Part shown: in pieces, positions 12,001-36,850 of the stretch
Position numbering within the stretch: position 1 is the stretch's first letter
How the letters are laid out: the number at the start of each line of letters is the position of its first letter
IMG/VR virus record: IMGVR_UViG_3300025120_000001
Location: 48,135 to 112,134 of that record
DNA from: a virus
Strand: one strand, 5' to 3'
Length of the DNA stretch: 64,000 nucleotides
The notes under the pieces: generated by a model
The model's input: only the letters and a program-made list of their open reading frames with translations
Database searches by the model: none
Told to the model about the DNA's origin: nothing
Made by a program: the position numbers and the translations under genes

Positions 12001-15000
12001 TTTTTTAGCTCCTAGTTTCAGCAACATTCCTCTTTTTTCTTGATATACCCTTTTTAAAACTTCATCAAGATATGGCGATTCACCTGCTGTTTTACCTACC
12101 ATTTTAGAATCTGGTCCTTCTATACCAGCATCATCCAATATAGAGCTTACACTTTGATCTCTTTTAACCGGATCTTGAGCTGACTCTTTTGCTTCTTCAG
12201 CTCTTGTTTCAGCGTCTTTTTTTAATATGTCAGATGCAGTTTGTCTATATACAGAAATAGCAGCTTGAACTTTTTCATATAATACGGGATCATCTATTTG
12301 ATTAACCGGGCCGTCTTGATTAAAGAAGTTTGTTAAATATTTAGGATCTCCTGTAGCTCCAAACAAAAGCATATCTTCTTGACCTAAATATACACCTACA
12401 TTAGCAAATTGATTTAAAAGAACATTTATCTCTTCTTTGTTTATAAATCTTTCAATAGACTCTCTGAATAGGCTCATTTTATTTTTATAAGCAAATTGAA
12501 AGTATAACTCAGATCTTTTTAGCATGTCATTTAAGTACTCGGGATCAGTCATAACCCTAAGCGCTTTATCATACATAAATTGTCTTGCATTCAAATGATC
12601 TGAATCTATAATAAGATCAATGACATCTTTAATCATTTCATTATTAACAAATGCTTTTTTATCCTTACCTATATATTCTAAATACTTTACAATAGCCGGT
12701 GTCAGTTTAGTCTGAAGACTTCTTCTATCAAAGCCTCCGTCTTTTTTCTGACGTTTAGGATCATATAGTATTGCTGAAATATCTTCAAGAAGCTTTAGTT
12801 TTTTAGCTCTTCTATTTTTTTCTCTCTTTGCACCAGGTTGATCTAATACTTCTACCTCAGTTCTAAGAGCAGCCATCTCTTCCATCATGGCTTCTTTTGT
12901 AGTAAGTACAGTTAAATCATTTGCAGCTAGTTCTTTAATAATAGGGTGAGATGCTAACTGATCATATATTTTTTCAGTTCTTTCAGCAGCTCTTTGGAAG
13001 CCATCTTTTGTAAATAGGTATAAATCTCTAGCATGTCTTTGAGCTAAAAACTTTAATGTTTCTTTTTCATGTTGTTTAGACCCCGGTTCATACAAACTTG
13101 GATCTGCAGTAATGGTAAGTTTATCTTTATTTTCATTAAAGTCTTTTTCCATTTGCTCCAATCTCCCCAAATTTTCTTGGATTTGAGATCTTAACTTTCC
13201 TTCTTTAGCTCTAGCTTTTTCAGAAGGGAATGCTTCTGCTAATTCTTGATCGGTTAACTCTAAATAATCTTGAAGTTGCTCTTTAAAAAATTCTTGTTTA
13301 CCTGTTTCAAATAAAGTTTTTAAATTTTGGAACTCTGCCATATCACGAGTATCCATAAAATTCATAATGTCCCCTTCAGATTGAGCTTGCTCCATTGCTT
13401 CACTCGCTTGCTTTTGCACAATGAAATTCATTTGATCTGGATTCATCAATGGATTAGACGGATCCATGGCCATAGAATCTCCATGCTTATTCATGTAAGA
13501 AACAAGATTATCTAAAGTTGTCTTTTTGTTTGCTTTATGTTTATCAAATGCGGCTTTATCTGTACCTATTGTATACAGTGTAGGTATACCTTGGAATATT
13601 GCCTTCTGAGGTAAATTAATTACACCACCCATAAAGAAACCTGACATAAATGTCTCTAAACCTTGAGAGCCCATTTGAGCACCTAAACCAGATGAAAGGG
13701 ATGATGAGAATAAAGCTGAACCGCCAGCCATAGGATCAAATTGTATTGCAGTATAATAATCTTTAACACCTGCAGATACAGCTTCTTGATAAACTTCTTG
13801 CAAACCTTCTGAAATATTTGCAGCCGAATATCTTAAAGCACCATAAGCAGCCATAGTAGCCCCACCTCTTAAACCATCTGATTTTAGTTTTTTAGCTATA
13901 AACTTCCAATTTAGAAAGCTGTCTTCAACACCCTCATAGATACCTTTTTGGACTTGTCTTTTACCTGCATTAGCTCCTTCTTTTACAACTTTTGTTGCAG
14001 CCTTACCTCTTACAATTCTACCAAAGCCTGAATCTATTGATTCTTTAGCTATTTGAGAAAAGCTTCTTTTAAATCCACCAAAAGCATTTCCAAGTAACAA
14101 CTGATTAGACAAGTAAATTACAGGAGCATTCCACATTGTTGTTGTGAATGCGGCTGACTTAGCATCTTGTTCTACCTTTGCCATTTGCTCTGTACTAAGT
14201 TCTTCTCCTAATCCAGCTAGCTTATTCTTTTGTCTTTGTATTAAATAGTTCTTTTGCCATTGCTCTTTATATACAGAACCACCTTCCATTCTACCTTCTG
14301 ATAAAGCAAAGTTTAGAGATCTTGCATCTCTATAAAATCCACCAGCAGTTTTAGAGAACCTAGCCATATTAGTTACATTCTCACCTGCTTTTTTAGTTGT
14401 ATTTAGTGCTTTAAAGGCACCCATTGTTTCAGGCAAGAGTATTTTACCTAGTATATTATCCCCTGACTTTACACCTTGAAAAATATCTCTAACCTTTTCA
14501 ATCTTTTTCATTCCTTGGACAAAGTCTTTTGTTGCTTTGAAAGCTTTACCAACTTTAAAACTTTGACCAATTCTACCTAATGCTTTAGTAAGCTTAGCAA
14601 CATTGTAACCAGTTCTTGCTACAGCTGCTGCACCAGTTGCGGCTGCTGCTGGAGCTCCAACACCACTTGCAGCTAATAATGCAGTACCTCCCCACATTAT
14701 AGCTTCTTCAATTGCAATTGAACCAATGATACCTAAAGTATATCCGGCATTTAAAACAAAATTGTTAAACCCAGCTCCAAACCCATCTCTACTTGAGCTA
14801 CCTATTCTAACAGCATCTTCATATTCTATGGCGCTTTTAAGATCCATTACATCATCTTCAAACCAACCTCTATAAGAGCTTAAATAACCTGTACCTACAA
14901 GTTTAGTAAGCTGACCAAACATTCTACCTGTATCTTCCCATCCACTAGAATTTTCATTATAATATGCTTCATTATCTCTATAAGCATGAAACCCCAATCT

Positions 15001-15462
15001 GCTAAAGGCTGGAGATGCATAGTATCTATCAAATTGAGTTGCCGCAACACCAGAGTAAACTGGATCTACTATGTTTGTATTAGCATCTCCAAATGTAGAA
15101 TCCTGCTTTCCATATGTAGGTTTTAGTTTTTCTACATTTTCAAAAGCTCTAATCTTACCTTGCATTGTAGCTGTATTAGGCGGATTACTTTGAGAGTTTT
15201 GATTAAATCTACCCATTGACGGAGCAGGAAGAGGTGAGTTAATATTATGCGTAGGCGGAGGAAAAAATCTATTAATACTTGCTGAAGCATTGCTAAGCAT
15301 AGCTTCATACTCCGGATCTACAGATTGATCAAAAGCTTCCAAATCAGTTGGGATTTCTAAATCAGCTATTGTTTCAAAAACAAATTGATCTTCGGGTACA
15401 CCAACTGGTGTATTAGCTATCTCATTGTTAAACATTATATTATCAAACTTATCTTCAACCAT
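1..15462 (-). CDS. Giant virion RNA polymerase fusion protein (partial, C-terminus beyond window)
   Basis: The frame runs from ATG 15462 to the window edge, giving at least 5,154 residues; I spot-checked lines across its length and saw no in-frame stop. It is most likely the virion-packaged RNA polymerase of a crAss-like phage, ejected with the DNA to transcribe early genes. Residues 3986-3990 read DFDID within VSGADFDIDKLYIQ, the aspartate motif of the beta'-type double-psi barrel in the form known from phage phi14:2 gp66. R3947 in GIRIPSQ lies 39 residues earlier, like the NRAPTLH arginine of bacterial beta'. SALKMMKKN (3579-3587) is a candidate for the beta-type barrel lysine. A zincin motif, HEAFH, is at 2199-2203 and may be an internal metalloprotease. 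Residues 235-285 are hydrophobic and Gly/Ala-rich, possibly membrane-active. It is the last gene seen in the cargo block. The polymerase call is strong; functions of the other 3,000 or more residues are unknown. Confidence 0.88.
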   Translation of the reverse strand, partial: MVEDKFDNIMFNNEIANTPVGVPEDQFVFETIADLEIPTDLEAFDQSVDPEYEAMLSNASASINRFFPPPTHNINSPLPAPSMGRFNQNSQSNPPNTATMQGKIRAFENVEKLKPTYGKQDSTFGDANTNIVDPVYSGVAATQFDRYYASPAFSRLGFHAYRDNEAYYNENSSGWEDTGRMFGQLTKLVGTGYLSSYRGWFEDDVMDLKSAIEYEDAVRIGSSSRDGFGAGFNNFVLNAGYTLGIIGSIAIEEAIMWGGTALLAASGVGAPAAAATGAAAVARTGYNVAKLTKALGRIGQSFKVGKAFKATKDFVQGMKKIEKVRDIFQGVKSGDNILGKILLPETMGAFKALNTTKKAGENVTNMARFSKTAGGFYRDARSLNFALSEGRMEGGSVYKEQWQKNYLIQRQKNKLAGLGEELSTEQMAKVEQDAKSAAFTTTMWNAPVIYLSNQLLLGNAFGGFKRSFSQIAKESIDSGFGRIVRGKAATKVVKEGANAGKRQVQKGIYEGVEDSFLNWKFIAKKLKSDGLRGGATMAAYGALRYSAANISEGLQEVYQEAVSAGVKDYYTAIQFDPMAGGSALFSSSLSSGLGAQMGSQGLETFMSGFFMGGVINLPQKAIFQGIPTLYTIGTDKAAFDKHKANKKTTLDNLVSYMNKHGDSMAMDPSNPLMNPDQMNFIVQKQASEAMEQAQSEGDIMNFMDTRDMAEFQNLKTLFETGKQEFFKEQLQDYLELTDQELAEAFPSEKARAKEGKLRSQIQENLGRLEQMEKDFNENKDKLTITADPSLYEPGSKQHEKETLKFLAQRHARDLYLFTKDGFQRAAERTEKIYDQLASHPIIKELAANDLTVLTTKEAMMEEMAALRTEVEVLDQPGAKREKNRRAKKLKLLEDISAILYDPKRQKKDGGFDRRSLQTKLTPAIVKYLEYIGKDKKAFVNNEMIKDVIDLIIDSDHLNARQFMYDKALRVMTDPEYLNDMLKRSELYFQFAYKNKMSLFRESIERFINKEEINVLLNQFANVGVYLGQEDMLLFGATGDPKYLTNFFNQDGPVNQIDDPVLYEKVQAAISVYRQTASDILKKDAETRAEEAKESAQDPVKRDQSVSSILDDAGIEGPDSKMVGKTAGESPYLDEVLKRVYQEKRGMLLKLGAKKIPTWEQFLEESLSKDIMRGYNGLKKVWFQTLQGLDGDAKMEVFNSDKGFKEWLSLQRTNDLVGEVLKEASSGRTGISLKIFLPELKDEQGVTEEDDKTKGKDSSNATIDILEKLVINPETEEATSFYVLVDKAGNILDEAMYEAAGLDPILAEGFTSKGKAESARAKLSNYVPTMDSFEFDGQTLNYGDRIQDSKTKKWYVVVSTKPTVEKYGNLLVLEEGKAYTLDPKQRIKKATRLKEGDFLKRFTPEVFNAGKAKLPANASKLRVDEATAAIPHRNDATTNYQEVLEIGRRRYDFILKNLTEKELNELEVIVTKNEQGGAILDREGGYLKFEDKEKNPFIRTTKSPYNIGLKLKSSTSKRINAKLEEAGIPIAMDAEGKATGMVGYIPNGDVILTDANGQAINPLSITKDQIKDLFNYSGPAETAASDIQRNFAIQFQIMNSIAEKMGDSESLVTTLEDIGGVNFFTTPGELVFDKKDKPVLDLNVQGVDGVTVVLENKKGKDGTVSTRFITNAERGEGSKVKKKIIAEMNAQNPNLYSGASNASRYVMVVKSSSGVYSYFPIKSDSLSTEGTAALAETLIKRSAETLKENVQEVEVKKGKKTKQTKDLKFNSIFNQEVNAGEVQDSPGFYMASKPGYTFEVNVGANGSVFIRAYDRKLKQSHNIIMSAEQVQEYAEFDNKEKFIEALITNYNDYISNIDVTDKAFAKKKVFFENLQKNGQLKKDAFKISFDKNVTTEEIEQSVTTQISPNVRGASKLIANIKGVQVSDIKNTAIISMTTTGRSTSADGNTSPSEEAETEDGPTASDGPAAEIASIEELSQEEYDKQKSNDFQGLSKDQREYLAQKLSEQGEKALTIRELEILGSPMGTSIRLLSKTKYNVDNPTSNAATSDTGAVQKDRAALIAERNNLLAKIEVRQVKIRKDSVGKLKNSEIMKKLLSDKEIIKLQKQLAKVESDLGNTANKISDNLNLEDLKHIDEFLSWASSNLPDFISIEDIRTLGDNMKSGGERVGAFVMAMSRIAGNEKINGKLYVGATSKYAYHEAFHAVFRMLLNSDQQNVYYKLAKTEVLSKLRSEGKSLKVELEKLRNGDINKYRNWSQESLEKEYLEEYMADQFEIFKQSPAKTKTDSFIKSLFNKILEWIRNVLGKYNATQLQALYKDISAGKFKNSQAVSNPFTDSATMGITLDASKLLRYSSSTPAKGKEVYKTIPNKQGRGIVSAITARVVDLEMFNEDPNFNIVDTVEESIDAFKALYNIDNAQYANVSTQQLLNLSNITNAFENFRKDIVDSVVQELELYDIKLEMMDDLDMENEMEYGLRTTEQYGKDASQVGGTRSLSSFLRKYIATTTLSEKDEFGNEYINPEADPDDRIKIIIPVDFASAYSGFLKAASGTSDPVRILQQIYMFSQNNPQTKAVQEKLFNDLGLVWEDQLENGIIPGETNDNLLFQALLKGFENFKVDYLFLHTNTADGQTLAYSAANRDDAHTQVEKWETEYKHRRRLYLSDPALKDDASDQLDVLLDYLNPKDPIGYISNKKLAEVAVKVSEVLSKTMGIKLHPDYIQYSIAGNIVQPTKLQKETAAKGKKRLGPTKWQQQILNSRTDVISIEWDDIVYMKEQFDANENLMSQTGEEGVYNRLRKLGLGNSMFDETVGSSVFKNPAGDLVYAHQLPTFHLKRIAQLNDVDNNAKALQDLIDKDPYLASNYLLNDPAFRQMSREGLLKVTRIAGSKASRGIEVDGDGGVVEKYDRNEEGVNYGDFNPKQILHALLSAYTAGVNPKSGKIKRGVIPEGQDEMIALAPVLLRVIEASNTGDMVELPIIQAVKTNAQGDAEVTDAALDAYEKNIEGEFARIQRELDPATRTEELHPGYNATKDGQNRQVEIRDKSGKIIGYNRAFKFTNNKLVLSPKDSPSTQLETGRLLDTEATVARLRAGTQKIFIKDEQGATSMGFFAEGESTNLEMSIGEVKEIKKKKKFVKKKGDKATFNRVKLVGSRKVSQLTMTNIYDKLGDAISDNKTTTHIKEATVGNNTYWVESDKMKDFIEGNKEFYVYELVDENILELDNEQLVEREKQAAEQEDYDIATAIRDLLNVRTFNYAAELEKLIRENAALPADQREVLTLDSALSKIGKDKKQLRAYMRSRIDQEFVQFNRDINSEFYRIDENGKPILELPKFLSQGVQRNENSTGSEAEFQRANEKLNLTGNRTYNTKQIFINDWINTSSMNDVLLGDQALTLKDAVDAVKRAKMQNAAYYSAASRIASPQHGILNPLQKISMFATTDPIGTSIHTGEDIEQADAQNWMSLKAFRYMWFGFGKLTETQSALLNKIEDGADISVDEIFGAAGAVKKQEMLNSKKLVYGDGKVFDKFSVVPLTKALTSYKDKNGNWVAKPGREDLHNMRVKMEQYEQDQLDKGIDTVAMVAPLSALKMMKKNITPIDALVGSGNTITQKESKLLGPANTGSYMARRLDFESTSETDESFGDDQVMELDANYMGLQVLNPSNKSEIIDPTQIKTLITGEQSDNTEVILNGELTTIGAIKLAYNRAVDSRLKQKYLDKRNLNFDMESDYAMDELHKSIDAKKLSPDLISFLKYAQTALKASASSAQLLEFFSFDEEGNPNFDFAQDTPIVAQKFKQLFLSYFSKGVMSEKLPGTAAALLSDYGFKQYRKIYSTEQVDGKSYIDRQEIIRTDDFQNNYSIDDVQKYGNEVLDLSDDNQDKFDSLNERLKNMKEGEFIIVKDRLRPDMKEYKDGEYTGIKYTESMMPVHSKDAYTMYDQVPSKSIPEVLSKMFGIRIPSQDNHSTVNIKVVDFLPVFYGSTIVSARELVEVSGADFDIDKLYIQMKDGYTTLEATKEKTKIYDVVVDMYEHKTEVDATGDPVDIWVVDNLAQAQEQLNLIKDGGRGKNFGEIQEALGTTKDGATYYEIPHKRGDNKRIYIRGTQPSRSIIKDKLRVKGKPYTKPKMQKVIKEYTNDFESYLKWVNKAVQKSGSTFAEAAAKANDRTKNSLSDKDLEAARKLGFSPNAIKALRMLNLPMNEKAFKSYHKKTGRYPFSSGYNNEILDFKYSMMGHAGNTTRDGDQSAISYEPADMEILKDTWSWISGEVPQLAEMLSEDGIDANNLFGKWKGFANNKEGAKSIGAAVLPNLYLSLIQEEGIKMIPGGGYELNIGGQVYNGLFNEDKVNGKTVDRSKELKEDGTLGRRKQYIISALITAMTDNAKERLAAKLGLSRNALAIVTTMSAMGVPIRTSVAMMNHPTIREAYQLEKRAPAFEFDVKEFIEDKMDSLKAAAATYDLATEEDFGATGVSQASLIDGSQDPMLKYKSEEELEDKVDRAADNGVEAITREQVLRDYAILDQFVKAFDVSGFLRPMGDLLNLAKGFGKDTNDVYKVSKAREDLGIDLTDAEFDMLPPNEMPIFDLRPVFSADRWQRGMLDIHDEFVGSILPKVFLDESAGFKNIFSSLDTNYKRFTKDERAVINNDMLSYITLQGYLNYLNNNPMSVLGIPTNTLLYPEEGTKDIVDTYDEIKELNGDKYNFFLDGFIRPESATSEGNKTGISMLTANTLTPLNDSQKLDVQNGFQELYADPLTRALSMKVLNYMIVKDGLQPVYRSIIASINPEMFADYMSTLPSTSQAFAAMDDAQMMANFGMSFRDLKLNFIREYGLHPKTAKLLKKKSMSSSAVFNGKSLVNQARKPFTLDYVESNPDKLFVIFDNESGTGTSNSKAVRGANNVISIVIKKDLSNNKESYYTGAEINTASNEIQQQIEKIKQNIDSFSGGVMIQNEIDNAELMGLQEFSVELYDDLLQKMEDNFGYQAVGLTDKQVKKEGKEVNRKAKNQALYLNDQFDRATITVDLYKGISARPKFEKNDEFETRKFAKIAKDKGKKYGSNVTQVKKGFKLRTVYEGKGERSIAEFPQVMGFMVDGQTRYFQLVRHAGPEYGNIGEGLSQDIATGTFAEYIEVDIMGSVAQTPVGFIFGERPTNNSVKETVKEANPGEDS

Positions 15463-15479
15463 ACTATATTAAATTAAGA

Positions 15480-18400
15480 TTATGAGTTTTCTTCCACTTG
15501 CTCTGGCGTAAGTTTGCCGAACATGAAGTTAAAATTATCTCCTTCTTTTGGATCAGTTATTTTATCTGGATTAGTTTTTTTCCACTTATCCCTTTGACTT
15601 TTATTCTGAGATCCTATTTTTTGTAATTCATATAAATACTTTCTCATATAATAATCTAATTCCTGTCTTGATCCTTGACCGATTGCAATGCCTTCATCAT
15701 TAACTAATTGCTTAGTAAACTGAGCAGCATCATATTCTCCAGTATCACCGTTGAATTGTAGTATTTGATAGTTCATATTATAACCACCTTCAGTACCTTC
15801 TGTTATAGAGAATGAGCCACCGGCAGGAACAGCTCTTTGAAAACTAGCATCTTCACTACTTGCTATAGAAGAAGCAACATATGAAAAATTAAATTCACCA
15901 TGTTTTCTAGGATTGTTATCCTCCTTTTTAGGAATAATGAAACTAAGTGTATTACCTGTAAAAGTTTCAGGTATCATTTTACCTTTTCCTCTCATGCCAT
16001 CCAAATACTCATCGCTAAACGTTAATGTATATCCTGCGTATTTATGATCTAGATTTTTACCTTCTGCAGTCCAGCTTGGGAAATATTTAATTGTAGCTAT
16101 TGGATAATCACCTTGAGCTTTGCTTTCTGTAGTTCTTCTCTTTGTCATATCCATTATGTATTGGTTGTATAACTTTTTACCAATGTTATAATCTATATTG
16201 TCTTTTCCTGTATCCTTATCCTTAATAACATCTTTATCATCCCAGTATGTACTACCATCTGATTTGCTAATTTCATTAAATCCATAATCTGCAAACATGA
16301 TAGTCATCTCAGGATCATTCTTTACTTGCCGGTTTAATGTGTTTAATTGTTCAGCCGCAGAATCTGATATAGATAACGGATCTATTAAAACTTCATAAGT
16401 AGGATTGTTTCCTATTTCACCAGGATTCTGGTCAGCTCCTGCAATACCTCTCATACCTTGTTTAATATCATATGTTTTAAATATATCACCAAACTCTGCA
16501 AAGTCACCCTTTTCTGTTGTGACTTCTTGCGTTGCTTCTAGCTTTCCTCTAATTGCATAGTCATTTAATTCATACATAGATTTCATGAACGCAGCAGCTT
16601 GTTTATCAGATCTCGCTCTATCATTTTGCATTGCGCCATTATACTCAATAGTCGTAATTGTTCTTTCTGGAGCATAACTTCCACTACCAACTGTACTACT
16701 ATATCTATTACTTTCACTGGCGCTTTCTCCAAGATTTGCCATTCTATTAGATGCATCTGACCATGATTGTTCATGCTCATCACCTGACCAAAAACTAGTA
16801 TCATCAAATCCATCTACATCAACGCCCTCTACAGAAAGAGCTGCGCCACCTCCATCTTGAATCCATTTCCAATATGCATCATTATATGATTTATCTGTAT
16901 GTCTTCTGCTTACACCATCTCCATCTTTGTATATCATAGTTGGCATACCAGCATTTACAGCCTTTGCCATTAAAGATTTAAACTCATCACCACTTTCAAG
17001 ATCAAATGATGAGTTTACAGCTTTCTTAATATTGTAATCTGTAACCTCATATAAATTTGATACATGTTTGTCAAGTTGCTTTGATTGATTATCAAGAGCA
17101 TCATAACCATTTTGAATAGCAGCAAACTCTGCAATTGGATCTTTGCTATTAAACAATAAAGGGCTGTTATCAGCAAAGGTTTCTTGATTTACATTCTTGG
17201 CTTGAACCTTAATTAAATCACCCATTCTTTTAAATTCTGATTCAAATGCTGTACTATACTTACTTTTCATTTGATTGAATCCTTCATTATCTTCACTACG
17301 CAAAAGATATTTTTTGAGTTCTGTTTTTAATGCGGATGCTGACATAGTTCCAATGCCATCCATTGTTATTAAACCACTACCCCCATTTGTTAAACCTTGT
17401 TTTCTTGCAAGTACATCAATAGTCCAATCAATTTCGTTATTGGTTATTTTGTTTTGCATGTCCAAAGCTATCTTTTCTTGATTCTCAATATGATCACCAT
17501 TTATAGTTGCGTTTCCGTCATCATCTATATTTTGAGCGGTTACTGTATTTGCATCAGTTGTAATTTCAGTTCCTTCTAAATCTAGTTTATCTTGTCCAGT
17601 AGCTTCATATTCTAATTGAGCCTTTAATGCAATGTTTTGTTTGTCAAAAATATCTTTAGCCTGCATTTGCTTCATCTTATTGCTATGCTGGGCAGCAATT
17701 TTTTGCATATCATATTTTTGTCTCTTAGCTAAAACAGCATATTCATTAGCTTCTAGTTTAGACATCATACCTTTTTTAGAATAGTCTATAGCCGCAGACT
17801 GAAGATCTGTTTCCATTCCCATATTCATCATCAAGCTATATGCTCTATTTAAAAGTGACTTTGTATTACCGGCATTGTATTCACCGTTTGTTTTAAAGTC
17901 TTTTTCAGATTGAGGCTGATTGTCAAAAAGCTTATCTATTTCCGCCAGTCTTTCTCTAACTGCAGATAAATCTGATTTACTTTCATTAGATGCTTTTTCT
18001 TCAGGACTTCCTTTTATAATAGGATCTTGTTTATTTGATTGGTTCCAAGCTTCGTTTTTTTGTTGAGCTTGTTTTTTCTTTTCTGCTAATGCTGCTTGTC
18101 TTTTTTCTATCTCTGCTTCAACTTCCTGAATCTTATCAGTTGCCCAAACATTCTGACCTTGATCTATACTAGCAAACTTACCCTCATCTACACCAGTCTG
18201 AGCAAAGTTCCGTGATTTAACATATGCATCTGCATGATATGCACCTATCACCATAGGATCATCCTTTAATGTTTTTTGTACAAGAGCTAAAGCTTCATTA
18301 GTTATTAAGTCTCCGTTCTTTCTATGAATCATCCACTCACCATTCTCAGATATTGTAGTAACTACATCTGTCTCTAAACCTGATTCATTAAGAACTTGTA

Positions 18401-18994: not shown

Positions 18995-21900
18995 TTATAT
19001 TCCCATCTTACCTGTATAAAAAGGGGTAGCCCACTTCTTTTTCTTTTTCTCTCCCCCTCGTTTGTTTTGGTAGCCGCCTGCTCCCTGTTGTCTAGCCTGC
19101 GCTTTCCATCTAGCTTCTCTAGGATCACCTTGATAACCTCTAGCATTTGCTTGTTGTACAAGAGATGACATAACATTCGGATCAACATTGCCATCTTTAT
19201 CTGTAAGACCTGCAGCTTTAGCTTGTCTAGCCGCTTCCATATAATCATCCATAAATGCCCATCTATCTCCCTCTGGTTGAGGGTTAAATGCTTTAGATCC
19301 TGATTGACTAATGTCACCTCCAGATAATGGATCAACATTAAAGTAATCATACATCTGATTCATGTTATATGTATTTGAAGCATTTGTTATCATATTAGCC
19401 GTAGCATCAGCATACTGCTCTCTATCAAAGTTCTTCTCATCCATATAAGTTTGAAGAGTTTTGGCAGTATCATCATATAACTTAGTGTTTCTTGAATCTT
19501 CAAGCTGGTTAAACTGACTATCTAATTGAGCATTCATTCTATTTGCATTATTCAAAGTCTGCACATTTCTTGAGTTAACTCCACCAACTGCATTAGCTAT
19601 AGCATCTATAGCTTGCCCTTGACCTTGCGCACTTCTAGCAGCCATTTGCTGAGGTCCTGCAAATGCACCTAATGCTTGTTCTGATGCAGCTCTTCCTGAA
19701 TTGATTGCAGCTATTTGTCTAGTTGGATCTTCCAATACAGCATCCATATAGTTTCTTCTAACTGGAGGTTGATAAGGTAAGAACATATCTCGCTCTCTAT
19801 CTGCAATAGCCTGAGTTTTAATTATATCTTGAATCCAAGGTGACTTAACAGCAGAGGGTGGTGGTAACTCTGTTTCAGGTACTTCTGGTGTCTTTCTTTT
19901 TTCAGTACAAGGACACGGCTCACTGGCTGTTGGTGTTCCCGGTTCTGAACCTTCTGGACATTGCGGACATTCACCACAAGGACATTTACCATTCTCATCT
20001 CTTGGTAGAACCTTACCTTTATCTGGACCATCAGGACAAGGTTGACATGGATATTCAGGCACTGTAGTATTTTCACGTTGTCCTACTGTAGTGTTACCGA
20101 ATGCACCATCTACTGGAGATATATCATATGTAACACCATTATATGTCCATTGATCATCATCTACACCTGATTGAACAAAGTTAAGTAAATCATCTCCTTC
20201 TGCTACATCGTAAACTTGACCCGCTTGATATGCGCCTTGAAACTGTCTTACTCCTGCCTCATCTAGTGCTGTGTATGTCATTTCTGCTAGTTCTTCTGGT
20301 GTAGCATCTGGGTTATCAGCTTTAATTTTAGCATTGATATCTGTAATAGCTTTATTATAATATGAGCTATTTGTACCATCATCCCATCCAGCCTCTTTTA
20401 AATAGTCTTGATCATCTTTATAGAAGTCTTGAATAGCATTAACTTGTCTTTCCCCTCTTATGTAATTTGAGTGAAAGTCTTCTTCAGAAGGTAAGTCTGC
20501 TTCATCAACACCTCGTGCTTTTTGAAGCAACTTATAAGTTTCATATCTCTTAAGTCTTCCTTCCTCATTCTCATCAGAGTTATACCAATCCGTCCAACTA
20601 TCAGTACCACCCATTAATTCGTCACCTGCTTTCCATGAAGGTTCGCCTCCTGATTGCATCATTGTAATACCTTGAGATGCAAACTCCATTTCTCTAGGAG
20701 ATGCTACATTTGGATCAATGCTTCCATTTTGTACACCATCAATAAACATTTGCAGTGCATTTTGTCTATCTCGTACTTCCATACCATCTTGACCATAACC
20801 GCTATATCCAGCAAAGCCTCCGCTAACAGATGCATCACCTTCCATATTTTTATTTATCAATCCTGTGTTTGTATCCCAAACACCTCTTGACATATTAGGA
20901 TCATATGATGTACCCATCATGTTGTCAGCCATAGACATTTTCATCATGTCTTCTTTAGCTTGCTTTCCTTTTACATCTTTAAATCTTTCATTAATACCAC
21001 CAGCAAGATTAACAGCAAAGTTTGATGTTTCTTTAAATGCATTCATACCAGGACTCTTCATAAAGCCTTGCATTGCCGTATTTAACCTAGTCCCAAGACC
21101 GGGACCTTCTTTTTCTTTTTCTGGATCCGTCATACTACCTTGGCCATCATATATAGAAGGTGCAGCTGTTTGTTCAGTAGCAAGCTTTTGCATTTTTTGT
21201 TGATAAGGTGTAGGGCCCATTGCTGGATTTGCGTTTTGCATCTGCGCATCCGCAACTATATTCTGACTGCTAGCATAATCATTATTTATTAACTCATTAA
21301 AATATGCTGAACCAGGACCTTGCTGTTGTTTAAATACATTCAGCAATTGTGTAGGATCTCCTAACCCAGTTTGTGCTTTAGCTAATTCTCTACCATATGC
21401 AGCCATTGGATTCATAGCTTGTGTGTCAGCTTGATTCATTGGTTGTGCTTGCTGATCTCCAGTAAACTGTTGAAGACCTTCTACTTTTTGAGCAAACTCA
21501 AAAGGATCAATACCTATAGCCTGTACATAAGGATAAGCAGCTAATGGTAATCCATCCTCAAAACCTTTCATCATTTCTTGACCAAATGCTAGTTTAGATA
21601 AACCTTCCTTGTTTTTTTGCAACATAAGATCTGCTGTATCAGCCTGTATCTTATCCGCATATTCATCATTTAATAAACCATAATACTTATTAAGCTCATA
21701 TTGTTTAGAAACCTTAGCTGGTGTTATCTTCTTTCTAGACTTAATGCCATGATCCGCTAACATCTCCTTACCCATCTTCATTTTTTGGGTATCAGAATAT
21801 ATAAAAGATTGTTCTGGCAAGAACATTGGAACACCACCGCTCCCATGTCTAGGACCGCTAATATCATAAAGACCAAACTGACCGTCATTATTTAAATCAG

Positions 21901-22159
21901 TTAGAACAGTCTCTCCACCTTCAGCTTCAATGTTAGCAATATCTCTTGGTACAGAAGATAGACTATATCTTACATCTGTATCTGAAGGACCCGATGCTTC
22001 ATTTGAATGAGAGTTAAATGTTGTCAATCCATAATTTTGTTGGTCGCCTGTAACATGACCACCATGTGACATCTTAACCAATTCACCATCAATCAATTCA
22101 AAACCTTCAGGTAGATTTTCTATACGAACTTTATATTTAGTATTTTTAATTTTTGGCAT
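18995..22159 (-). CDS. Large virion cargo/structural protein with Pro/Cys-rich linker (1054 aa)
   Basis: The open frame can be extended to a GTG at 22183, but the ATG at 22159 is preferred: it lies one base after the stop of the upstream gene, and the eight extra codons would sit inside that gene. The N-terminal 150 residues (IEAEGGETVLTDLNNDG, GPRHGSGGVPMFLPEQSF) resemble a domain I recall from structural proteins of Bacteroidetes phages. The middle holds one QxGGE motif (QSGGEPSW, bases 20642-20656). Around bases 19900-20060 there is a Pro/Cys-rich linker with repeated CPxC and CPCG units. The C-terminal third is Gln/Asn/Ala-rich and helical. Placed between two other cargo candidates; probably an ejected or tail-interior protein. 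No catalytic residues recognised. Confidence 0.75.
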   Translation of the reverse strand: MPKIKNTKYKVRIENLPEGFELIDGELVKMSHGGHVTGDQQNYGLTTFNSHSNEASGPSDTDVRYSLSSVPRDIANIEAEGGETVLTDLNNDGQFGLYDISGPRHGSGGVPMFLPEQSFIYSDTQKMKMGKEMLADHGIKSRKKITPAKVSKQYELNKYYGLLNDEYADKIQADTADLMLQKNKEGLSKLAFGQEMMKGFEDGLPLAAYPYVQAIGIDPFEFAQKVEGLQQFTGDQQAQPMNQADTQAMNPMAAYGRELAKAQTGLGDPTQLLNVFKQQQGPGSAYFNELINNDYASSQNIVADAQMQNANPAMGPTPYQQKMQKLATEQTAAPSIYDGQGSMTDPEKEKEGPGLGTRLNTAMQGFMKSPGMNAFKETSNFAVNLAGGINERFKDVKGKQAKEDMMKMSMADNMMGTSYDPNMSRGVWDTNTGLINKNMEGDASVSGGFAGYSGYGQDGMEVRDRQNALQMFIDGVQNGSIDPNVASPREMEFASQGITMMQSGGEPSWKAGDELMGGTDSWTDWYNSDENEEGRLKRYETYKLLQKARGVDEADLPSEEDFHSNYIRGERQVNAIQDFYKDDQDYLKEAGWDDGTNSSYYNKAITDINAKIKADNPDATPEELAEMTYTALDEAGVRQFQGAYQAGQVYDVAEGDDLLNFVQSGVDDDQWTYNGVTYDISPVDGAFGNTTVGQRENTTVPEYPCQPCPDGPDKGKVLPRDENGKCPCGECPQCPEGSEPGTPTASEPCPCTEKRKTPEVPETELPPPSAVKSPWIQDIIKTQAIADRERDMFLPYQPPVRRNYMDAVLEDPTRQIAAINSGRAASEQALGAFAGPQQMAARSAQGQGQAIDAIANAVGGVNSRNVQTLNNANRMNAQLDSQFNQLEDSRNTKLYDDTAKTLQTYMDEKNFDREQYADATANMITNASNTYNMNQMYDYFNVDPLSGGDISQSGSKAFNPQPEGDRWAFMDDYMEAARQAKAAGLTDKDGNVDPNVMSSLVQQANARGYQGDPREARWKAQARQQGAGGYQNKRGGEKKKKKWATPFYTGKMGI

Positions 22160-22160
22160 A

Positions 22161-25100
22161 TTATAATATTTTAACGCTGCCACCAGCAGCCATTATTTTT
22201 GCAATTTGCTCTGTAGATAATTCTACTGAATCCATATCATGAGGGCTTGCCTTTTTATAAGATCTAGCTTTAGGGCTTGCCTCTTGTATCTCTTGTAGTA
22301 ATTGTTGTAAATATTCTTTCATCTGCATAAGCTGTTCAGGATTCATGGCTTGTTGCATCATTTGAGCCTGACCTTGAGGATCCATCATTTGTTGTGCTAA
22401 ATCATTCATGTATTGCATCTCCATCATTCTAGGATCACTAGGTTGCATGTTAGGTTGCATTTGACGTGGTTGTTCCGATTGATTTATCATACCACCCATT
22501 TGTTTAAACATTGCATCATACTCAGCTTGAATAGCATCTCTTTCTTGCTCTAATCTTGGTGTAGCTCCTACATATCTCATTACACCTGAGTCATCCGTAT
22601 AGTAATTATCTTCGCCTGTTCTCATTGGATCACCTTCAAAGTTTCTTGACTTATATCCGTCATATACACCTCCTGGATTATTATATAAATCTAAAACCTC
22701 ATCATCCCCATAACCTGCAGATATTACACTATGCTGTGAGCCACTAGATGCACCACCTGGTTGATTATACATATGACCTCTAATTAGATCTCCTTCTTGT
22801 GTTGGCATAGTCCCTTTAGGTTGAAGTTCAAATCCCATTTGCTCAGCGTAAGAATTAAATTGAGCATTTCCTGGTATCATAGGAATCTTATCACCAGGAC
22901 CATATGTTCTACCATTTACCGTAAACTCTTCCTGACCTTCAGGAATTGTAACTCCAGCATCTCTCATTATTTGACAGGAATATGTATTACAAGCAAAGCC
23001 CGTATTATCTACCCATTTTGCTAAGTTATCAGATATTCCAGCTTGTGAAGCGGATGCATTAGCATCTCCAAGTTCTCTAGCTCTTGCTGATACAGCTCCT
23101 CTAACATCTGTTACTCTAGACATCTCTGTATCATATGCAGCATTGGCAGCATTAAGTCTTTCTTGCATTGCTAGTTGTTCTGGAGTTAACTCTGGAACTA
23201 CAGTTTCTTCACCACCCTCTTGACGCATTTTTGTACCTAGTCTTGAAAACTGAGTAGGTTTATTTCTAACCAATTTATCTTTACTCCAATTCCAAGGTTG
23301 TATGTTATGACCAAACTTACTTAACTTAGTAAAAGTATGATCTGGTCTACGCTCTCTTCCGTGAGGTTTATTACCACCTCTTTCAATTCTTTTTGCTTGT
23401 CTTTCATTCTTGCGAAAATCTCTATCTCCCTGTCTTTCTTCTGGACTTCTTTTAAATATACCCGGGCTACTATTTCTAACTCTACTTCCATCATCTACAG
23501 GACCTAATCCAGAACCTCCTCCAGGTCTTGGACCAGTTGCGCCTGCAGTAGCACCTTGTTGACTTAACATGCTCTGTTTAACCATATCTAAACCATCATT
23601 TAAAAACTGTCTTTGTGATGGACTAGCATTTGTTATTTTTGATTTTGCTTCATCTGTATTAAAAATTGAAGGTTCTCTTTCGCCACCCTCTTGAGCAAAA
23701 GGAAGACCAAATCCTCCACCCATTTGCATAGGCGGCATTGTCCCAACACCTTCTTGCATGATCTCTGGACTTGGGCCTTTCATCTGTCTTTGCATTTGCA
23801 TCATCAGTTGATCCATCTGCATTTTATGTTGCTGTTGCATCCTTCTAATGACATCCTCATACTGTCTAACTATAGCTTCTTGATTTTGAACATGACCCAT
23901 TTCAGGTTTACTATTTCCTATTATTTCTGCCACTATCTCTTTTCCATTCTGACCTTTCTGAATTCCGTTCATTATTTTTTGTTGAACCGCAGGAGGAAGG
24001 GCATTGAAACCCGGGTTATTATAGGAACCACCATTCTTGTAATTTTGCATCATCATATTATTTAAATTTTCTTGACTATCTTCGGGTAACTCTGCATCTT
24101 TATCATAGTAACCTACACCACCTTTGGAATCCATTCCAAATTGCATACCCTTTGGCATATCTTTCTTATCAGTTTCAAACGCTGATCTTTGATCTGCAAC
24201 ATATTGTAGTTGATCTTTTTGATTTTGATCTAATCCGGACATATCACCTTGAAGTTGATTAAATGATTTATAGCCTTCTTTTTCATAATCAAACGGTTTG
24301 TTAAGTAATTCACCTGTATTAACCTTCTCACCTTTTTTAAATAGGTTGCTGTATTTTTTCTTTTTAATATTTGATTGATATCTAGGATCGTTATAAGCTG
24401 TTTGGTAATTTCCAGTTTCTGCATCATACTTCATCATAAGTTTATCACCGGCATTCTTCATAAGACCTTTTGGTGTCTTGCCTTTCATAACAGCCATGGT
24501 ATCCTTATGTCTATTACGTTTTGCCTTCATATCTCTAAAAGCACCATCTCCTAAACCATCTCCGTCTTTATCCTTACCACCAAATAATCTACCAGCGCCT
24601 TCCGCAACAGTAGCAAGTAAGTTTACGTTCTTACCTTTCATACCAAGATTCATTGGCATGTATGCACTATTTATATTACCTCTAACACTATCATCTATTT
24701 GATTATAGTTTAAAGCATTATTAATACCCATTCCATACTGAGCTTGATTTAAAATCTCTCCATATCTACTAGGTTCTCCGCCTTCTTGAAAGTTATACCA
24801 TTTTCCCGTATTGTAGTTTGGATCTCCACCAAAAACACTATTTAACCCATTAAGAAGCCCATCAGCTTTTTGGTATCTAGTTCCAGCATCTTGAGCTGTA
24901 TTTTTAATCCATCTACCACTTTTGTAGACCGCAGATACACCATCAATAATTTTTGTTGCGCCCTCATGCGCTATCATTCCTAAAGCTAAATCAACTGCTT
25001 TTGCATCGTTTGGATCAATCATCCAATCTGGTGTAATTTTATCTGTAATTCCGGAACCTGCTATTGCTGGAGCTAAACCACTTGCCATGTCTTTTACTCC

Positions 25101-26528
25101 CTGCGTTCTACCTTTATATTCTGAACCCCCAACTTTAGATCTACCTTTATAATTTTGTGCAAGAGTATTGAAAACCATATCAGGATCTGTTAGTGCACCA
25201 TCACCACCTTTACCAATACCAAATTTTGACGCTATATCAGCAAGACCTACTACTCCCGTAGTCTGACCAACGTTCTTATCATCAACACCATAGGCTCTAC
25301 ACACACCATCAGCACAATTGTTATCTCCAAAATGATAGTCTTTTGCTGACTCTGATGCTGTAGTATTTAAGAAGTTTGCAAGTTCATTTGAGTTTAATTG
25401 TATATCTAATGTTCTTGCATTAGATCCTTTGAGAAATGCATCCATTATCCCTTTATTCTCATAATGTTGTGCATACCTACTTCCTTTTCCAGCATTGTCA
25501 TCTCCCCCGCTATCATTTTTCATAGCATAGGCCTGACCTCTTTCTTCCCATCTATTGACTAGGGCATCTTGAACTTTATCATCATTATCTCTATACTGCA
25601 ATACAGGATTGCCATTAGGATCAATCAATATAGTTTCAATATGACCAGGAGGCATATTCAAATATTCATAGTTTGTACCTTTTGGATACGCTACAACTTT
25701 TGTTGTATACCCGCTGCCTTCTTTTATAATATCCTGATAACTAGGAATAGTCTCAGAAGCTACAACATCTTGTGAGCTTCTTGCTGCTCTTTCCTTATCA
25801 GCCTTATCTTTTAAGTACTTTGCTTTTTGATTATTATCCCAAGCCTTTTGTTCTTCTGTGCCTTCCCACTCATCAACGTTATCTCCAAACACGTCAGCTC
25901 TAGCAGATTTCAACGGTACTTCATTTCCAGATTTCTGCAAGTCTCTCCACTTTGTGCCTTTGGCTGACTTTGTAAAATAAGTCATTTCCCCTGTTCTAGG
26001 ATCTGTAATCTTTTTATAGTGATAGCCATCACCTCTATCTGTAATTATATCTTCAATTGGAGCTGAATAATCTAAGTCATCAACTTCTGCACCATCTTGC
26101 GCTATTGGAGTTTGGCTTGGCTGACCTTCCCTGACCATATCTACAGGTGGTCTTTTAATTTGACCTTCTGCAGGTTCTCCTTGAGTAGGTTGTATCGGAC
26201 CTTCTGGTGCTGGAGCTGTTTGTTGTTCTTGCAATTCATTCATTGCACCCATTATCTCTTGTTCACTTAATCCAGCAGATACAAGACCTTGCTGAATTGC
26301 TTCCATTGGAACCTCATTCTGAGCTAAGGTCATAATTAATTGAGCCAAGGGCATTCCTTGTTCTATTGCTGATTTAATCGCAGGTACTAATTGTTCCATT
26401 GGATCATTGGCGGAAGCCGGCATTTGATCCTGTCCTTGTGGTTGCATCTGAGGTTCTCCTCCTGTTTGCATGAAGTCTCTCATTTTTTTGCTATGCAAAC
26501 TTCTATTGTTTAGATTTGAATTGTGCAT
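22161..26528 (-). CDS. Cargo protein with two NlpC/P60-like cysteine-peptidase modules (1455 aa)
   Basis: The N-terminal 100 residues are Gln/Pro-rich and start with a short basic leader ending in QTGGEP (residues 21-26). A first module near residue 405 reads NNCADGVCRAYG; a second near 1150-1310 reads GFACNTYSCQIMRDAGV (C1180, C1185), then GDLIRG and SQHSVISAGYG (H1266). The Cys...His order and spacing suit NlpC/P60 or CHAP-type folds, which cut cell-wall peptides or proteins. Four QxGGE motifs (21, 581 and two in the C-terminal half), plus KNGGS and QMGGM variants, punctuate the chain. A basic low-complexity stretch (bases about 23300-23460) may bind DNA. A candidate late promoter lies 14 bases upstream of the ATG. 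I infer an ejected protein that helps cross the cell envelope; a processing protease is the alternative. Confidence 0.72.
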   Translation of the reverse strand: MHNSNLNNRSLHSKKMRDFMQTGGEPQMQPQGQDQMPASANDPMEQLVPAIKSAIEQGMPLAQLIMTLAQNEVPMEAIQQGLVSAGLSEQEIMGAMNELQEQQTAPAPEGPIQPTQGEPAEGQIKRPPVDMVREGQPSQTPIAQDGAEVDDLDYSAPIEDIITDRGDGYHYKKITDPRTGEMTYFTKSAKGTKWRDLQKSGNEVPLKSARADVFGDNVDEWEGTEEQKAWDNNQKAKYLKDKADKERAARSSQDVVASETIPSYQDIIKEGSGYTTKVVAYPKGTNYEYLNMPPGHIETILIDPNGNPVLQYRDNDDKVQDALVNRWEERGQAYAMKNDSGGDDNAGKGSRYAQHYENKGIMDAFLKGSNARTLDIQLNSNELANFLNTTASESAKDYHFGDNNCADGVCRAYGVDDKNVGQTTGVVGLADIASKFGIGKGGDGALTDPDMVFNTLAQNYKGRSKVGGSEYKGRTQGVKDMASGLAPAIAGSGITDKITPDWMIDPNDAKAVDLALGMIAHEGATKIIDGVSAVYKSGRWIKNTAQDAGTRYQKADGLLNGLNSVFGGDPNYNTGKWYNFQEGGEPSRYGEILNQAQYGMGINNALNYNQIDDSVRGNINSAYMPMNLGMKGKNVNLLATVAEGAGRLFGGKDKDGDGLGDGAFRDMKAKRNRHKDTMAVMKGKTPKGLMKNAGDKLMMKYDAETGNYQTAYNDPRYQSNIKKKKYSNLFKKGEKVNTGELLNKPFDYEKEGYKSFNQLQGDMSGLDQNQKDQLQYVADQRSAFETDKKDMPKGMQFGMDSKGGVGYYDKDAELPEDSQENLNNMMMQNYKNGGSYNNPGFNALPPAVQQKIMNGIQKGQNGKEIVAEIIGNSKPEMGHVQNQEAIVRQYEDVIRRMQQQHKMQMDQLMMQMQRQMKGPSPEIMQEGVGTMPPMQMGGGFGLPFAQEGGEREPSIFNTDEAKSKITNASPSQRQFLNDGLDMVKQSMLSQQGATAGATGPRPGGGSGLGPVDDGSRVRNSSPGIFKRSPEERQGDRDFRKNERQAKRIERGGNKPHGRERRPDHTFTKLSKFGHNIQPWNWSKDKLVRNKPTQFSRLGTKMRQEGGEETVVPELTPEQLAMQERLNAANAAYDTEMSRVTDVRGAVSARARELGDANASASQAGISDNLAKWVDNTGFACNTYSCQIMRDAGVTIPEGQEEFTVNGRTYGPGDKIPMIPGNAQFNSYAEQMGFELQPKGTMPTQEGDLIRGHMYNQPGGASSGSQHSVISAGYGDDEVLDLYNNPGGVYDGYKSRNFEGDPMRTGEDNYYTDDSGVMRYVGATPRLEQERDAIQAEYDAMFKQMGGMINQSEQPRQMQPNMQPSDPRMMEMQYMNDLAQQMMDPQGQAQMMQQAMNPEQLMQMKEYLQQLLQEIQEASPKARSYKKASPHDMDSVELSTEQIAKIMAAGGSVKIL

Positions 26529-26541
26529 TTTTTAATTTATT

Positions 26542-26563
26542 GGATACAATTATAATATACGAA
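26542..26563 (-). promoter_or_regulatory. Candidate late promoter motif before cargo genes
   Basis: TTCGTATATTATAATTGTAT and two further bases on the minus strand, 14 bases before the 1455-residue cargo gene. It would drive the genes down to the giant polymerase. Confidence 0.5.
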
Positions 26564-26591
26564 TAATTGGTAACATTTACTAATTTAGGGT

Positions 26592-29159
26592 TTAAGATAT
26601 CATTGTAGTCATTATGTAATTAGAAGGGTGCATGTTATTTACCTTAGCCTCTCTATAATAAACTCTATTAAGTTTATCATAGTTTTTCTGTGCTTTCTGA
26701 CTTTCATCTTTACCTACTACATAATCTTTATACAAACCTAATTCTGGAGAAAGTTTAGGTCCTCCTATTTTAAACTTACGTGGTACATTCTCATTATATG
26801 TATCATATAGCTGGGTTTGCATTTTTAATAATTGAGCTGGCTGTAATTGAAAAGCATCTAGATTTGATAATTCTTCTTCTAAAAATTGTTGCTTAGCTTC
26901 AATGTCTTTAGGTGTTATCTCTCCGCCTGATTGTTTTTTAATTAGATCCATCCAGCCTTTAATGTTTTTAACATAACCGGCTCCTCCTTGAGCATCCCCA
27001 GATGTTAAAGAATAAGGTGAGTTCCAATTATAAATAAAAGCATCTATAGGACTAAGATCTGCATTACCTGCAGTTGCTTTATCTATAACAATTTGCTCTT
27101 CTCCATCTTCATCTTTTTCATAACGTGCTGTATATCTACCCGGCCAACCCTCTTCTTCAGCAGCAGCATCAAGGTTTTTCTGAATTTCTTCTAGACTATC
27201 CATAGATCCTAGACCTAAAAAATTAATTCCAGTAAAAAGATCTACATTTACTCCACCATCAGTTTCAAACTCTTTGCCATCATATTTAATGTCACTCTTC
27301 CAGTCTTTAGCTTTACCTTTCCAAGTTGGCGGACGGTAAGTTCTTACACCTTGTTTTCCTTTACCTTTCTTTAAATTCTTTTGAGCTGCTAAATAATTTC
27401 TTGATCCATAAATCATAGAAGCAATGGCAGATTTATCAGAATCTTTTAAATCTGATTGTTGAGTGATGCCGTATTTTTTAGCCAGCTTCATTAATTGTTT
27501 ATCTTCTGAAATGTTACTCCACATCAATTGCGTTAATCCAGAACTATCTTGACCTAATGTTCCCGGTAAAGCTTGCTCAATATTATGTTGATAGCCTCCA
27601 CCACCTTCTGTTTCTTGCATTGAAATACCTATAAGGGCAGCGGACATTTCATCATACTGATCTTCTCTAATTTTAAGATCTTCCATTAAAGAGAATTTTT
27701 TATCTTTTAATGCTTTATAGAAATCTGGGAGTTCATCATCATCCTGAAAATATGATTGATCCATTATAGCATCTAGATTAAGATCTAATTCTTTTGGATC
27801 TTCTCCTGTGTAATAACCCTTTTCTTTTGCCCATTCTAAACCATGTCCTATATGTTCTTTTGGTATAGTGATATTAGATATACCGCCTATTCCATACATA
27901 GTGCTTCCATCAATTGGGACATAATCCCCATAATCATAAACAACAGGAACCCCTCTTTCATCATATCCTACAACTTGAGTACTGTGACCAGAGCTAACCA
28001 TTCCGAGTTTATTATTTTCTCCTTTTTTATCTAAGTATTGATCAAATCCTATTATTGTACCTGGAGTCATATCTTTATATAACTCTTTTAGTTGTTCTTC
28101 AGTTAAGCGGCTTGACTCATTATTTGCCCAATTTTCATCAGTAGTGTTATATAAACTTTTACCCCCTTTGCCAACCATCATGCCGTGTATATCCCAACTA
28201 TCTGCTGTATAATCATATTCAGTTTCTCCATATACATCCCGGCTAAAAGATGGTTGATTCTTAATCCAATTATATGTATTAGATCCTTCACCAAATCTAT
28301 CATCCTCAACATCATTAGTATAATGAACAAACTCATCTGTATTTTTATCATATCCGTAACCCGTTCCAGTATCACTATCTCCAGCAGCCTGTAAACTTTG
28401 TACACCAATATTTTTCTTTAAATTCACTTCATTTAGAAAATCACCACTCGGGTATCTTTGACCAACAAGTTTATCATAAGCATCATATGAACTAGCTAAA
28501 CAACCTTTACCACGAGGATCGCAATAATACTCACCACTTTCACCTTGATTAAGTTTATCAAAATCTGCAGCAGAAATATAAAGATCATTTAAATTACTAA
28601 CTCCTTTTTCTCCACCATCTTGAAAATTATGCTTAAATCCAACGTTAATTCCAAACGTAGGATTTTTTCCTAAATGAGCGCTAGGACTTACGCTAAACTC
28701 ATTGCTTCCTTTTTGATACTTAAGATCTAAACCTAAGTCTAATGATCCATTTCTTGAAGCAAGTTCTTGTAATGGCTTAATGTAAGTACCGTGTATATCT
28801 AAATTTTTAGAATTAATATGACCACTATATCCAAGACTATTACTATCCATGAATGCATTACCGCGACTTTTAATAGAAGGTTCTTCTCTATGAGGGATTT
28901 CCAAAACTACATTGCCGGGAAAATCATATTCAAAACCAGGAAACATTCTTTTTTCATTACCAAACTCATCTAAACCTGTAACTGGAAAGTCTACATCTCT
29001 CATTGTTATTCTTCCTGACGGAATTATATTAAACGGGTTATCTACATCAGGGCTATTTCTTTTATACCCTTCTGTTGAGAAACCTGAGCTATATGTAATT
29101 TCTTCATTTGGTCCACCTGGTAAACCTCTCCTTATTATGTCCTCGTATTTGTTTATCAT
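26592..29159 (-). CDS. Virion cell-wall hydrolase: cysteine-peptidase-like plus lytic transglycosylase-like protein (855 aa)
   Basis: The start ATG overlaps the stop of the muzzle gene by four bases, so translation is probably coupled. Residues 210-400 contain GKGCLASSYDAY (C220) and GHSTQVVGYDERG (H392), a papain/NlpC-like arrangement. Residues about 500-610 contain ISMQETEGGGGY (E516, E518) and then DSSGLTQLMW, the layout of lytic transglycosylases (catalytic Glu followed by S-GL-Q-). It should cut peptidoglycan during entry. QDGGE (bases 28608-28622) precedes the first module and QSGGE (26919-26933) follows the second. C-terminal residues are helical. Position directly after the muzzle fits a tail-lumen or ejected protein. 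The transglycosylase call is fairly good; the cysteine module is more tentative because C and H are about 170 residues apart. Confidence 0.72.
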   Translation of the reverse strand: MINKYEDIIRRGLPGGPNEEITYSSGFSTEGYKRNSPDVDNPFNIIPSGRITMRDVDFPVTGLDEFGNEKRMFPGFEYDFPGNVVLEIPHREEPSIKSRGNAFMDSNSLGYSGHINSKNLDIHGTYIKPLQELASRNGSLDLGLDLKYQKGSNEFSVSPSAHLGKNPTFGINVGFKHNFQDGGEKGVSNLNDLYISAADFDKLNQGESGEYYCDPRGKGCLASSYDAYDKLVGQRYPSGDFLNEVNLKKNIGVQSLQAAGDSDTGTGYGYDKNTDEFVHYTNDVEDDRFGEGSNTYNWIKNQPSFSRDVYGETEYDYTADSWDIHGMMVGKGGKSLYNTTDENWANNESSRLTEEQLKELYKDMTPGTIIGFDQYLDKKGENNKLGMVSSGHSTQVVGYDERGVPVVYDYGDYVPIDGSTMYGIGGISNITIPKEHIGHGLEWAKEKGYYTGEDPKELDLNLDAIMDQSYFQDDDELPDFYKALKDKKFSLMEDLKIREDQYDEMSAALIGISMQETEGGGGYQHNIEQALPGTLGQDSSGLTQLMWSNISEDKQLMKLAKKYGITQQSDLKDSDKSAIASMIYGSRNYLAAQKNLKKGKGKQGVRTYRPPTWKGKAKDWKSDIKYDGKEFETDGGVNVDLFTGINFLGLGSMDSLEEIQKNLDAAAEEEGWPGRYTARYEKDEDGEEQIVIDKATAGNADLSPIDAFIYNWNSPYSLTSGDAQGGAGYVKNIKGWMDLIKKQSGGEITPKDIEAKQQFLEEELSNLDAFQLQPAQLLKMQTQLYDTYNENVPRKFKIGGPKLSPELGLYKDYVVGKDESQKAQKNYDKLNRVYYREAKVNNMHPSNYIMTTMIS

Positions 29160-36523: not shown

Positions 36524-36850
36524 TTAGCAATTCCATTTTCTTAAAGCCAAAGCTTTTCTAGTAGGCTTTCCATTAGGTTTTTTCATTGGTCCCTTTACTC
36601 CACTCATTCTTGCACAAAATGATTTTCTTCTTTTAGCTGACTTACTACCCGCTTTTAGTTTAGAAGGTTTGGTAGTTACTGCAGTTTGCAATTTAGATCC
36701 TGGATTCTCTTTCCTGTATGATGCAACACCTTTTGCATTCAAACCCCCTTTAGGATCTTTACCTTCTTTTCTAGTCCAAGCAGCTGTAGAACCGCCCTTC
36801 TTAAACATGCCGGGAACTCTAACACCTTGTGAATTGTATATTGGATTCAT
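36524..36850 (-). CDS. Small basic conserved phage protein (108 aa)
   Basis: Highly basic, with AAWTRKEGKDPKGGLNAKG and KSFCARMSGVKGP followed by PNGKPTRKALALRKW. This pattern is widespread among marine phage proteins; I recall it as a DUF, possibly DUF6321, not verified. The N-terminus carries the tag PIYNSQGVRVPGMFKKGGS, shared with two neighbouring genes. It is one of four small basic genes packed head to tail between two ring-protein genes, so a virion-associated, nucleic-acid-binding or assembly role is plausible. Function unknown. Confidence 0.8.
   Translation of the reverse strand: MNPIYNSQGVRVPGMFKKGGSTAAWTRKEGKDPKGGLNAKGVASYRKENPGSKLQTAVTTKPSKLKAGSKSAKRRKSFCARMSGVKGPMKKPNGKPTRKALALRKWNC

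Follow-up and report, generated by a model that had tools for sequence, protein, structure and literature searches.

We report that a short double-glycine motif, first noticed as QxGGE, is a genuine and specific feature that forms a conserved system of seams in the probable cargo genes of a crAss-like phage and its relatives. The motif marks module seams, lying between leader and body, between one module and the next, and ahead of conserved C-terminal pieces. In our leading reading, to which we assign a probability of about 0.48, these seams would be recognised by a peptidase and cut after GG.

Results

Probable cargo genes of a crAss-like phage

The stretch of DNA analysed here (the window; 64,000 nucleotides) makes up the right-hand portion, positions 48,135 to 112,134, of the 112,134-base virus record IMG/VR IMGVR_UViG_3300025120_000001. 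The genome is crAss-like, since genes for the crAss tail-ring proteins, muzzle, portal, terminase and DFDID polymerase are all present: tail-ring proteins 1 and 2 match CrAss_Ring_1/2 above the Pfam cut-off, PHROGs matches cover a muzzle-like protein, portal, terminase and capsid, and a giant ORF holds DFDID, which we take to be the motif of the crAss virion RNA polymerase. Crassvirales, whose cargo proteins are for the most part poorly resolved, are dominant among human gut phages. Three genes, here A, B and C, follow immediately on the muzzle gene, in the place that the cargo genes gp45-gp47 occupy in crAss001; because of this match in gene place, the three proteins are probably packaged in the virion and ejected.

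26592-29159, minus strand: gene A, probable ejection protein of 855 aa; two QxGGE sites; matched by 62 ORFs of relatives
22161-26528, minus strand: gene B, probable modular ejection protein of 1455 aa; leader ending in MQTGG, four QxGGE sites, conserved C-terminal tail
18995-22183, minus strand: gene C, 1062 aa from a GTG start; one QxGGE site

Searches of isolated phages by tblastn with A, B and C gave weak matches or none. For gene C, an ATG at residue 9 of the listed GTG frame (window position 22159) is the probable start, homologues beginning slightly after it. The structural gene block also encodes a protein of 408 aa (window 38772-39998) with a calcineurin-like phosphoesterase match just under the family cut-off. 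The DFDID motif shares a single ORF of 5366 aa (window 1-15462 and the contig beyond) with a zincin-like HEAFH motif; in crAss001, HEAFH lies in gp47, separate from the polymerase gp50, and a search of that phage did not find the exact DFDID.

Count and spread of the motif

An earlier note on this DNA had reported seven QxGGE motifs in three adjacent genes, and all seven are found on the minus strand where it placed them, six with exact coordinates and one, listed as 24775-24788, off by one base (24774-24788).

28608-28622, minus strand: QDGGE, residues 180-184 of A; a junction without the cassette of about 490 aa seen in relative L027
26919-26933, minus strand: QSGGE, residues 743-747 of A; one aligned place across relatives, where QAGGE, QIGGE and KVGGE also stand
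26454-26468, minus strand: QTGGE, residues 21-25 of B; end of the N-terminal leader
24774-24788, minus strand: QEGGE, residues 581-585 of B; start of module 582-854, which lies in a different protein in L027
23679-23693, minus strand: QEGGE, residues 946-950 of B
23208-23222, minus strand: QEGGE, residues 1103-1107 of B; start of the C-terminal Cys/His module
22488-22502, minus strand: QMGGM, residues 1343-1347 of B; related form, at the opposite end of the Cys/His module
20642-20656, minus strand: QSGGE, residues 510-514 of C; QDGGEPSWK stands at the matching place in L027

The count withstands the checks that the note had proposed: no further QxGGE occurs in the 35,735 predicted residues of the 112,134-base contig, and shuffling the three proteins yields a mean of 0.16 and a maximum of 3 in 2000 shuffles, against the seven observed. 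Shuffles that keep GG pairs together reach a mean of 0.29 and a maximum of 4 in 5000, and when the choice of pattern is allowed for, the best a.bcd count in shuffles averages 2.9 with a maximum of 4. Because the codons differ between copies (CAA TCA GGA GGC GAA, CAA GAG GGT GGT GAA and others), the repeat is one of protein, and a DNA-level repeat is ruled out. The remark that the sites are often followed by P is true for three of the seven; the related GG forms listed beside it (KNGGS, QMGGM and KKGGS) are present.

Relatives were reached with the muzzle protein as query, a direct search with A in viral_contigs having been unsuccessful; this gave 76 loci with cargo genes in the flank, 74 of them usable. 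In the 74, QxGGE occurs 96 times after the muzzle gene, once before it and never in the muzzle protein, and is spread across most of the loci; [QK]xGG[ESD] is dense in small basic proteins too. The flanks of GG in the cargo region are enriched in Q or K at -2, in M, F, Y or K at -3 and in E or S at +1. The wider motif is accordingly [M/F/Y/K]-[Q/K]-x-G-G-[E/S/Q/D], of which QxGGE is one form, and small basic proteins and short N-terminal leaders contain it as well. The position that follows GG is variable (E 96, S 42, Q 39, A 26 and D 24 among 316 sites), so that the conserved core is the part up to GG. The motif, which the earlier note had found in three consecutive proteins, is kept in relatives and extends to the small basic proteins. 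Across whole records [QK]xGGE is commoner than the reversed pattern; distant crAss phages have fewer copies, and phi14:2 has none. In gp41 of Cellulophaga phage phi17:2 the forms FQAGG, YQNGG, FQIGG and FQSGG are present. Tandem pairs with no module between them, such as KYGGSLPKAQxG, were seen in 63 cases in the cargo genes of relatives. No GG motif of phage cargo was found described in the literature searched.

Alignment of homologues, likewise suggested in the earlier note, places GG above its surroundings, with identities of 0.63 and 0.58 for the two glycines against about 0.30 for the flanks and 0.20 for x, and the retention of both glycines is only slightly raised (47% of pairs at the motif versus 41% at other GG pairs). 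GG conservation by itself is thus only mild support.

Module seams in genes A and B

The notion that the sites lie at domain borders is borne out by a pile-up of homology breakpoints at the motif. In the cargo proteins, 146 homology starts lie within 10 aa of a motif against 77±8 at random, and 149 ends against 67±9, an excess of about twofold and 9 SD, although these SD values are not strict probabilities because the breakpoints are drawn from related sequences. Other GG pairs have no breakpoint excess (starts 145 versus 134±12; ends 161 versus 158±12).

Individual cases show A and B to be chains of swappable modules between conserved end pieces. In gene A of L027 about 490 aa separate a QPGGE at 194 from a QGGGE at 686, and A of the window has a single QDGGE without that stretch. 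L027 carries module 582-854 of B within its gene C protein, and in L012 module 27-135 of B lies internally. LysM begins immediately behind QxGGE in three relatives, and a fourth has only a few residues between the two. A structure model of the B module puts its first motif in a disordered opening stretch and its second where the final helix of the folded part ends; in the model of A, which is poor (mean pLDDT 51), the sites fall in low-confidence gaps between helices.

27825-28607, minus strand: Cys/His module of A; C220, H392 and D409/D417 conserved; weak Peptidase_C39_2 likeness, below the family cut-off
27240-27722, minus strand: transglycosylase/lysozyme-like module of A; conserved E516; predicted from its sequence and the SLT domains of relatives
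22509-23066, minus strand: Cys/His module of B; CNTYxC ... H ... NPG; fold match not significant
22164-22226, minus strand: conserved C-terminal tail of B, VELSTEQIAKIMAAGGSVKIL; VDxxxLAKLIAAGADIEIL in relatives

Gene A is conserved in its N- and C-terminal domains and variable between them, where the Cys/His and lysozyme/transglycosylase-like modules lie. A 31-member alignment, which takes in very unequal proteins and calls for caution, leaves only M1 and one of the C-terminal GG glycines invariant, the next glycine being nearly so. Among 31 relatives of A, LysM was found in 13, SLT in 10, YkuD in 6 and PG_binding_1 in 3, besides amidase, lysozyme and DUF5872; the modules of relatives are mostly peptidoglycan-binding or -cleaving, and cell-wall enzyme and binding domains that are present there are weak or inferred in the window's own A. 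Because the same places hold cell-wall modules in relatives, a role as cell-wall peptidases or amidases is more likely for the Cys/His modules. A fold search with the B module gave nothing significant, the best matches being cathepsin L and a phage endolysin at E 0.38-0.76. Gene A of several relatives (L014, L019, L022 and L024) has in common, between roughly residues 130 and 230, a CHKCGG element with KAQxG behind it. Gene B carries GG within its first 35 residues in 33 of 40 cases, for which the random-window chance is 0.25; MKVNKISLKQEGG is an example of its leader and VDSNLLAKLIAAGADIEIL of its tail.

Small basic proteins with GG tags

A leader of the form YNNxGxRVPGMYKKGG precedes two small basic proteins of the window, and a similar tag stands C-terminally, after NYGG, on a third.

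36791-36850, minus strand: leader YNSQGVRVPGMFKKGG on a small basic DUF6321 protein (36524-36850)
37410-37469, minus strand: leader YNNVGVKVPGMYKKGG on a basic protein of 59 aa (37290-37469)
36994-37059, minus strand: C-terminal NYGG and EPLYNNVGTRVPGMYKKK on a basic DUF5872 protein (36991-37290)

These small basic proteins are probably DNA-binding. The 80 DUF6321 homologues comprise 14 whose leader ends in GG, 41 with N-terminal extensions of another kind and 25 that begin within 7 residues of the seam (MAKTAAW...); a tag with GG is present in only 3 of 80 DUF5872 homologues. Where homologues of the basic proteins have no tag, they often begin or stop close to the seam; the tag itself may be N- or C-terminal. 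The crAss ring protein is found in 7 of 9 long contigs with a GG leader and in 5 of 13 without one. Further small basic GG proteins, mostly with GG after a short leader (YKQGGQP, FMNGGDV, MKYQGGGT, MQIGGTV, MKLGGAV), were seen in L009 at 13458-17308, on the contig left of the window.

Gene C and gp45 of crAss001

Gene C is the probable counterpart of the crAss001 cargo protein C1 (gp45). Its residues from about 73 to 193 resemble the portal-binding segment of gp45 by eye, without a score, and it weakly matches a csAssE-Sib protein; a search of PDB sequences gave no match, and PDB profile searches gave nothing useful. Like gene C, gp45 lies after the muzzle; its GG sites border two resolved pieces, and a basic C-terminal tail follows GG. 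It differs in having F/Y-rich forms (AFGG, AYGG) instead of QxGGE, and the main texts of the crAss001 papers report no processing. The resolved piece 425-552 begins A-F-G-G-W, so that this related GG is not cut after GG in the resolved copies, and the peptides named in the crAss001 paper fall between the aromatic GG sites.

Discussion

Proposed cutting after GG and its alternatives

Cutting is our first choice because the site resembles a protease site, stands at leaders, tails and seams, and falls in the same two protein classes as the maturation sites of adenovirus, and because the enriched flanks at -3, -2 and +1 speak for specific recognition and not a plain glycine linker. A peptidase would cut the seams after GG during head maturation or ejection, which would release the modules from one another and from the packaging pieces; seams of this kind also join the short tags to the small basic proteins. 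A candidate for this peptidase is the zincin-like domain in the cargo polymerase ORF.

8854-8868, minus strand: HEAFH zincin-like motif in the giant RNA-polymerase ORF (also in crAss001 gp47); candidate processing peptidase

The HEAFH region has no Pfam peptidase match. The S78 prohead protease family (PF04586) had no match in 20 whole records with a positive control; PF02902 (Ulp1) had none in 20 whole records either, which is uninformative as its control was silent too; and a scan of the structural genes saw no prohead protease. Counting against cutting, the 1151-aa protein and the polymerase ORFs, which are other cargo, are without QxGGE, both glycines are kept at the motif hardly more often than at other GG pairs, and the gp45 chain is continuous through AFGGW, which argues against a general cut, though in a different form of the motif.

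The same continuity would suit a seam that is a short linear motif for binding a virion part (portal, tail rings, scaffold or vertex), loading or anchoring the cargo with no cut. In crAss001 the gp45 pieces are bound at the portal and tail rings, the one at 425-552 starting at AFGG; the motif stands at termini and in linkers of inner proteins, its strong flank preferences fit a binding motif, and the conserved ends of A and B resemble loading pieces. We nevertheless regard docking without cutting as less likely, given that other packaged proteins (the RNA polymerase ORFs and the 1151-aa protein) do not carry QxGGE, and that the motif occupies module seams flanked on either side by breakpoints and can directly adjoin LysM. 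The two readings of the earlier note, processing sites and a packaging tag, are both possible.

Module exchange at the motif, and the low-confidence segments in which the structure models place it, would also be expected of a flexible joint without a partner, a favoured point of exchange spread by duplication. Differing codons between copies, specific residues at -3, -2 and +1, leaders of some 10-15 aa that need no joint, and the presence of the motif in unrelated small basic proteins make such a passive seam improbable. The proposal of the earlier note that the cargo's own Cys/His modules cut the GG sites in the manner of C39 or papain peptidases draws on conserved Cys, His and Asp/Asn residues, a weak Peptidase_C39_2 match and the position of the B module between QEGGE and QMGGM, but is very improbable, since most of the relatives in which the motif is kept lack these modules: the phmmer relatives of the modules occur in 4, 4 and 7 loci while the motif is general, LysM, SLT, YkuD, amidase or lysozyme modules occupy the same places in relatives, and C39_2 matches 1 of 20 records, our own, below the cut-off, and none of the 19 relatives, nearly all with the motif.

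The seam motif offers a parts list of where modules start and end, a view of how cell-wall enzymes are swapped, and a direct prediction on chain ends. If the seams are cut, the published continuous course of the gp45 chain through the tail needs checking and there is a new phage protease to find; if they dock, they point to the loading mechanism.

Comparison with known systems

Double-glycine leaders of C39 systems follow the consensus LSxxELxxIxGG. The leaders described here likewise end in GG; however, that consensus is absent, the motif is also internal and C-terminal, and a C39-like module is not general. Prohead protease sites of T4, phiKZ and SPN3US end in Glu ([I/L]xE or [S/A/G]xE), and the internal proteins of T4 bear capsid-targeting leaders. 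A short leader on injected, variable proteins is common to those phages and, probably, to ours, and giant phages process ejected proteins, according in part to PMC10052503, as ours may. They differ in that their sites end in Glu, while here E follows GG in only 96 of 316 sites and no S78 protease was found; cutting after E as in the T4 and phiKZ sites is ruled out by the variable position behind GG.

Polyvalent proteins of phages and conjugative elements, as described in PMC5512222, are large, multidomain and injected, commonly include a zincin-like peptidase, and have been proposed to release their domains. Our cargo resembles them in its large multidomain, probably injected proteins, and the zincin-like HEAFH motif of the polymerase ORF may be a further likeness; in contrast, no GG seam was found in the passages of PMC5512222 consulted. 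The virion polymerase of N4, with its zincin-like peptidase, is packaged unprocessed.

A parallel in the site itself comes from two unrelated viruses. The adenovirus protease, adenain, cuts (M/I/L)xGG|X and also accepts Gln or Asn at P4 (PMC4246237); in African swine fever virus (ASFV) the cut is at GG|X (PMC1198262). In both the site is built around GG and the targets are inner virion proteins and small basic core proteins (PMC4246237, PMC1198262); our own (M/I/L/N/Q)xGG sites stand in proteins that, judging from gene place, probably lie inside the virion. Different are the virus, the cutting, which here is putative and deduced from sequence, and the protease, no relative of which was identified. 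As a tentative generalisation, less secure than cutting in this phage, crAss-like phages may possess a GG-directed maturation in which modular ejection proteins, together with tagged DNA-binding proteins, are cleaved after [Q/K]xGG by an as yet unrecognised peptidase. Such a system would parallel those of adenovirus and ASFV while having evolved separately, and its payload would be interchangeable injected modules.
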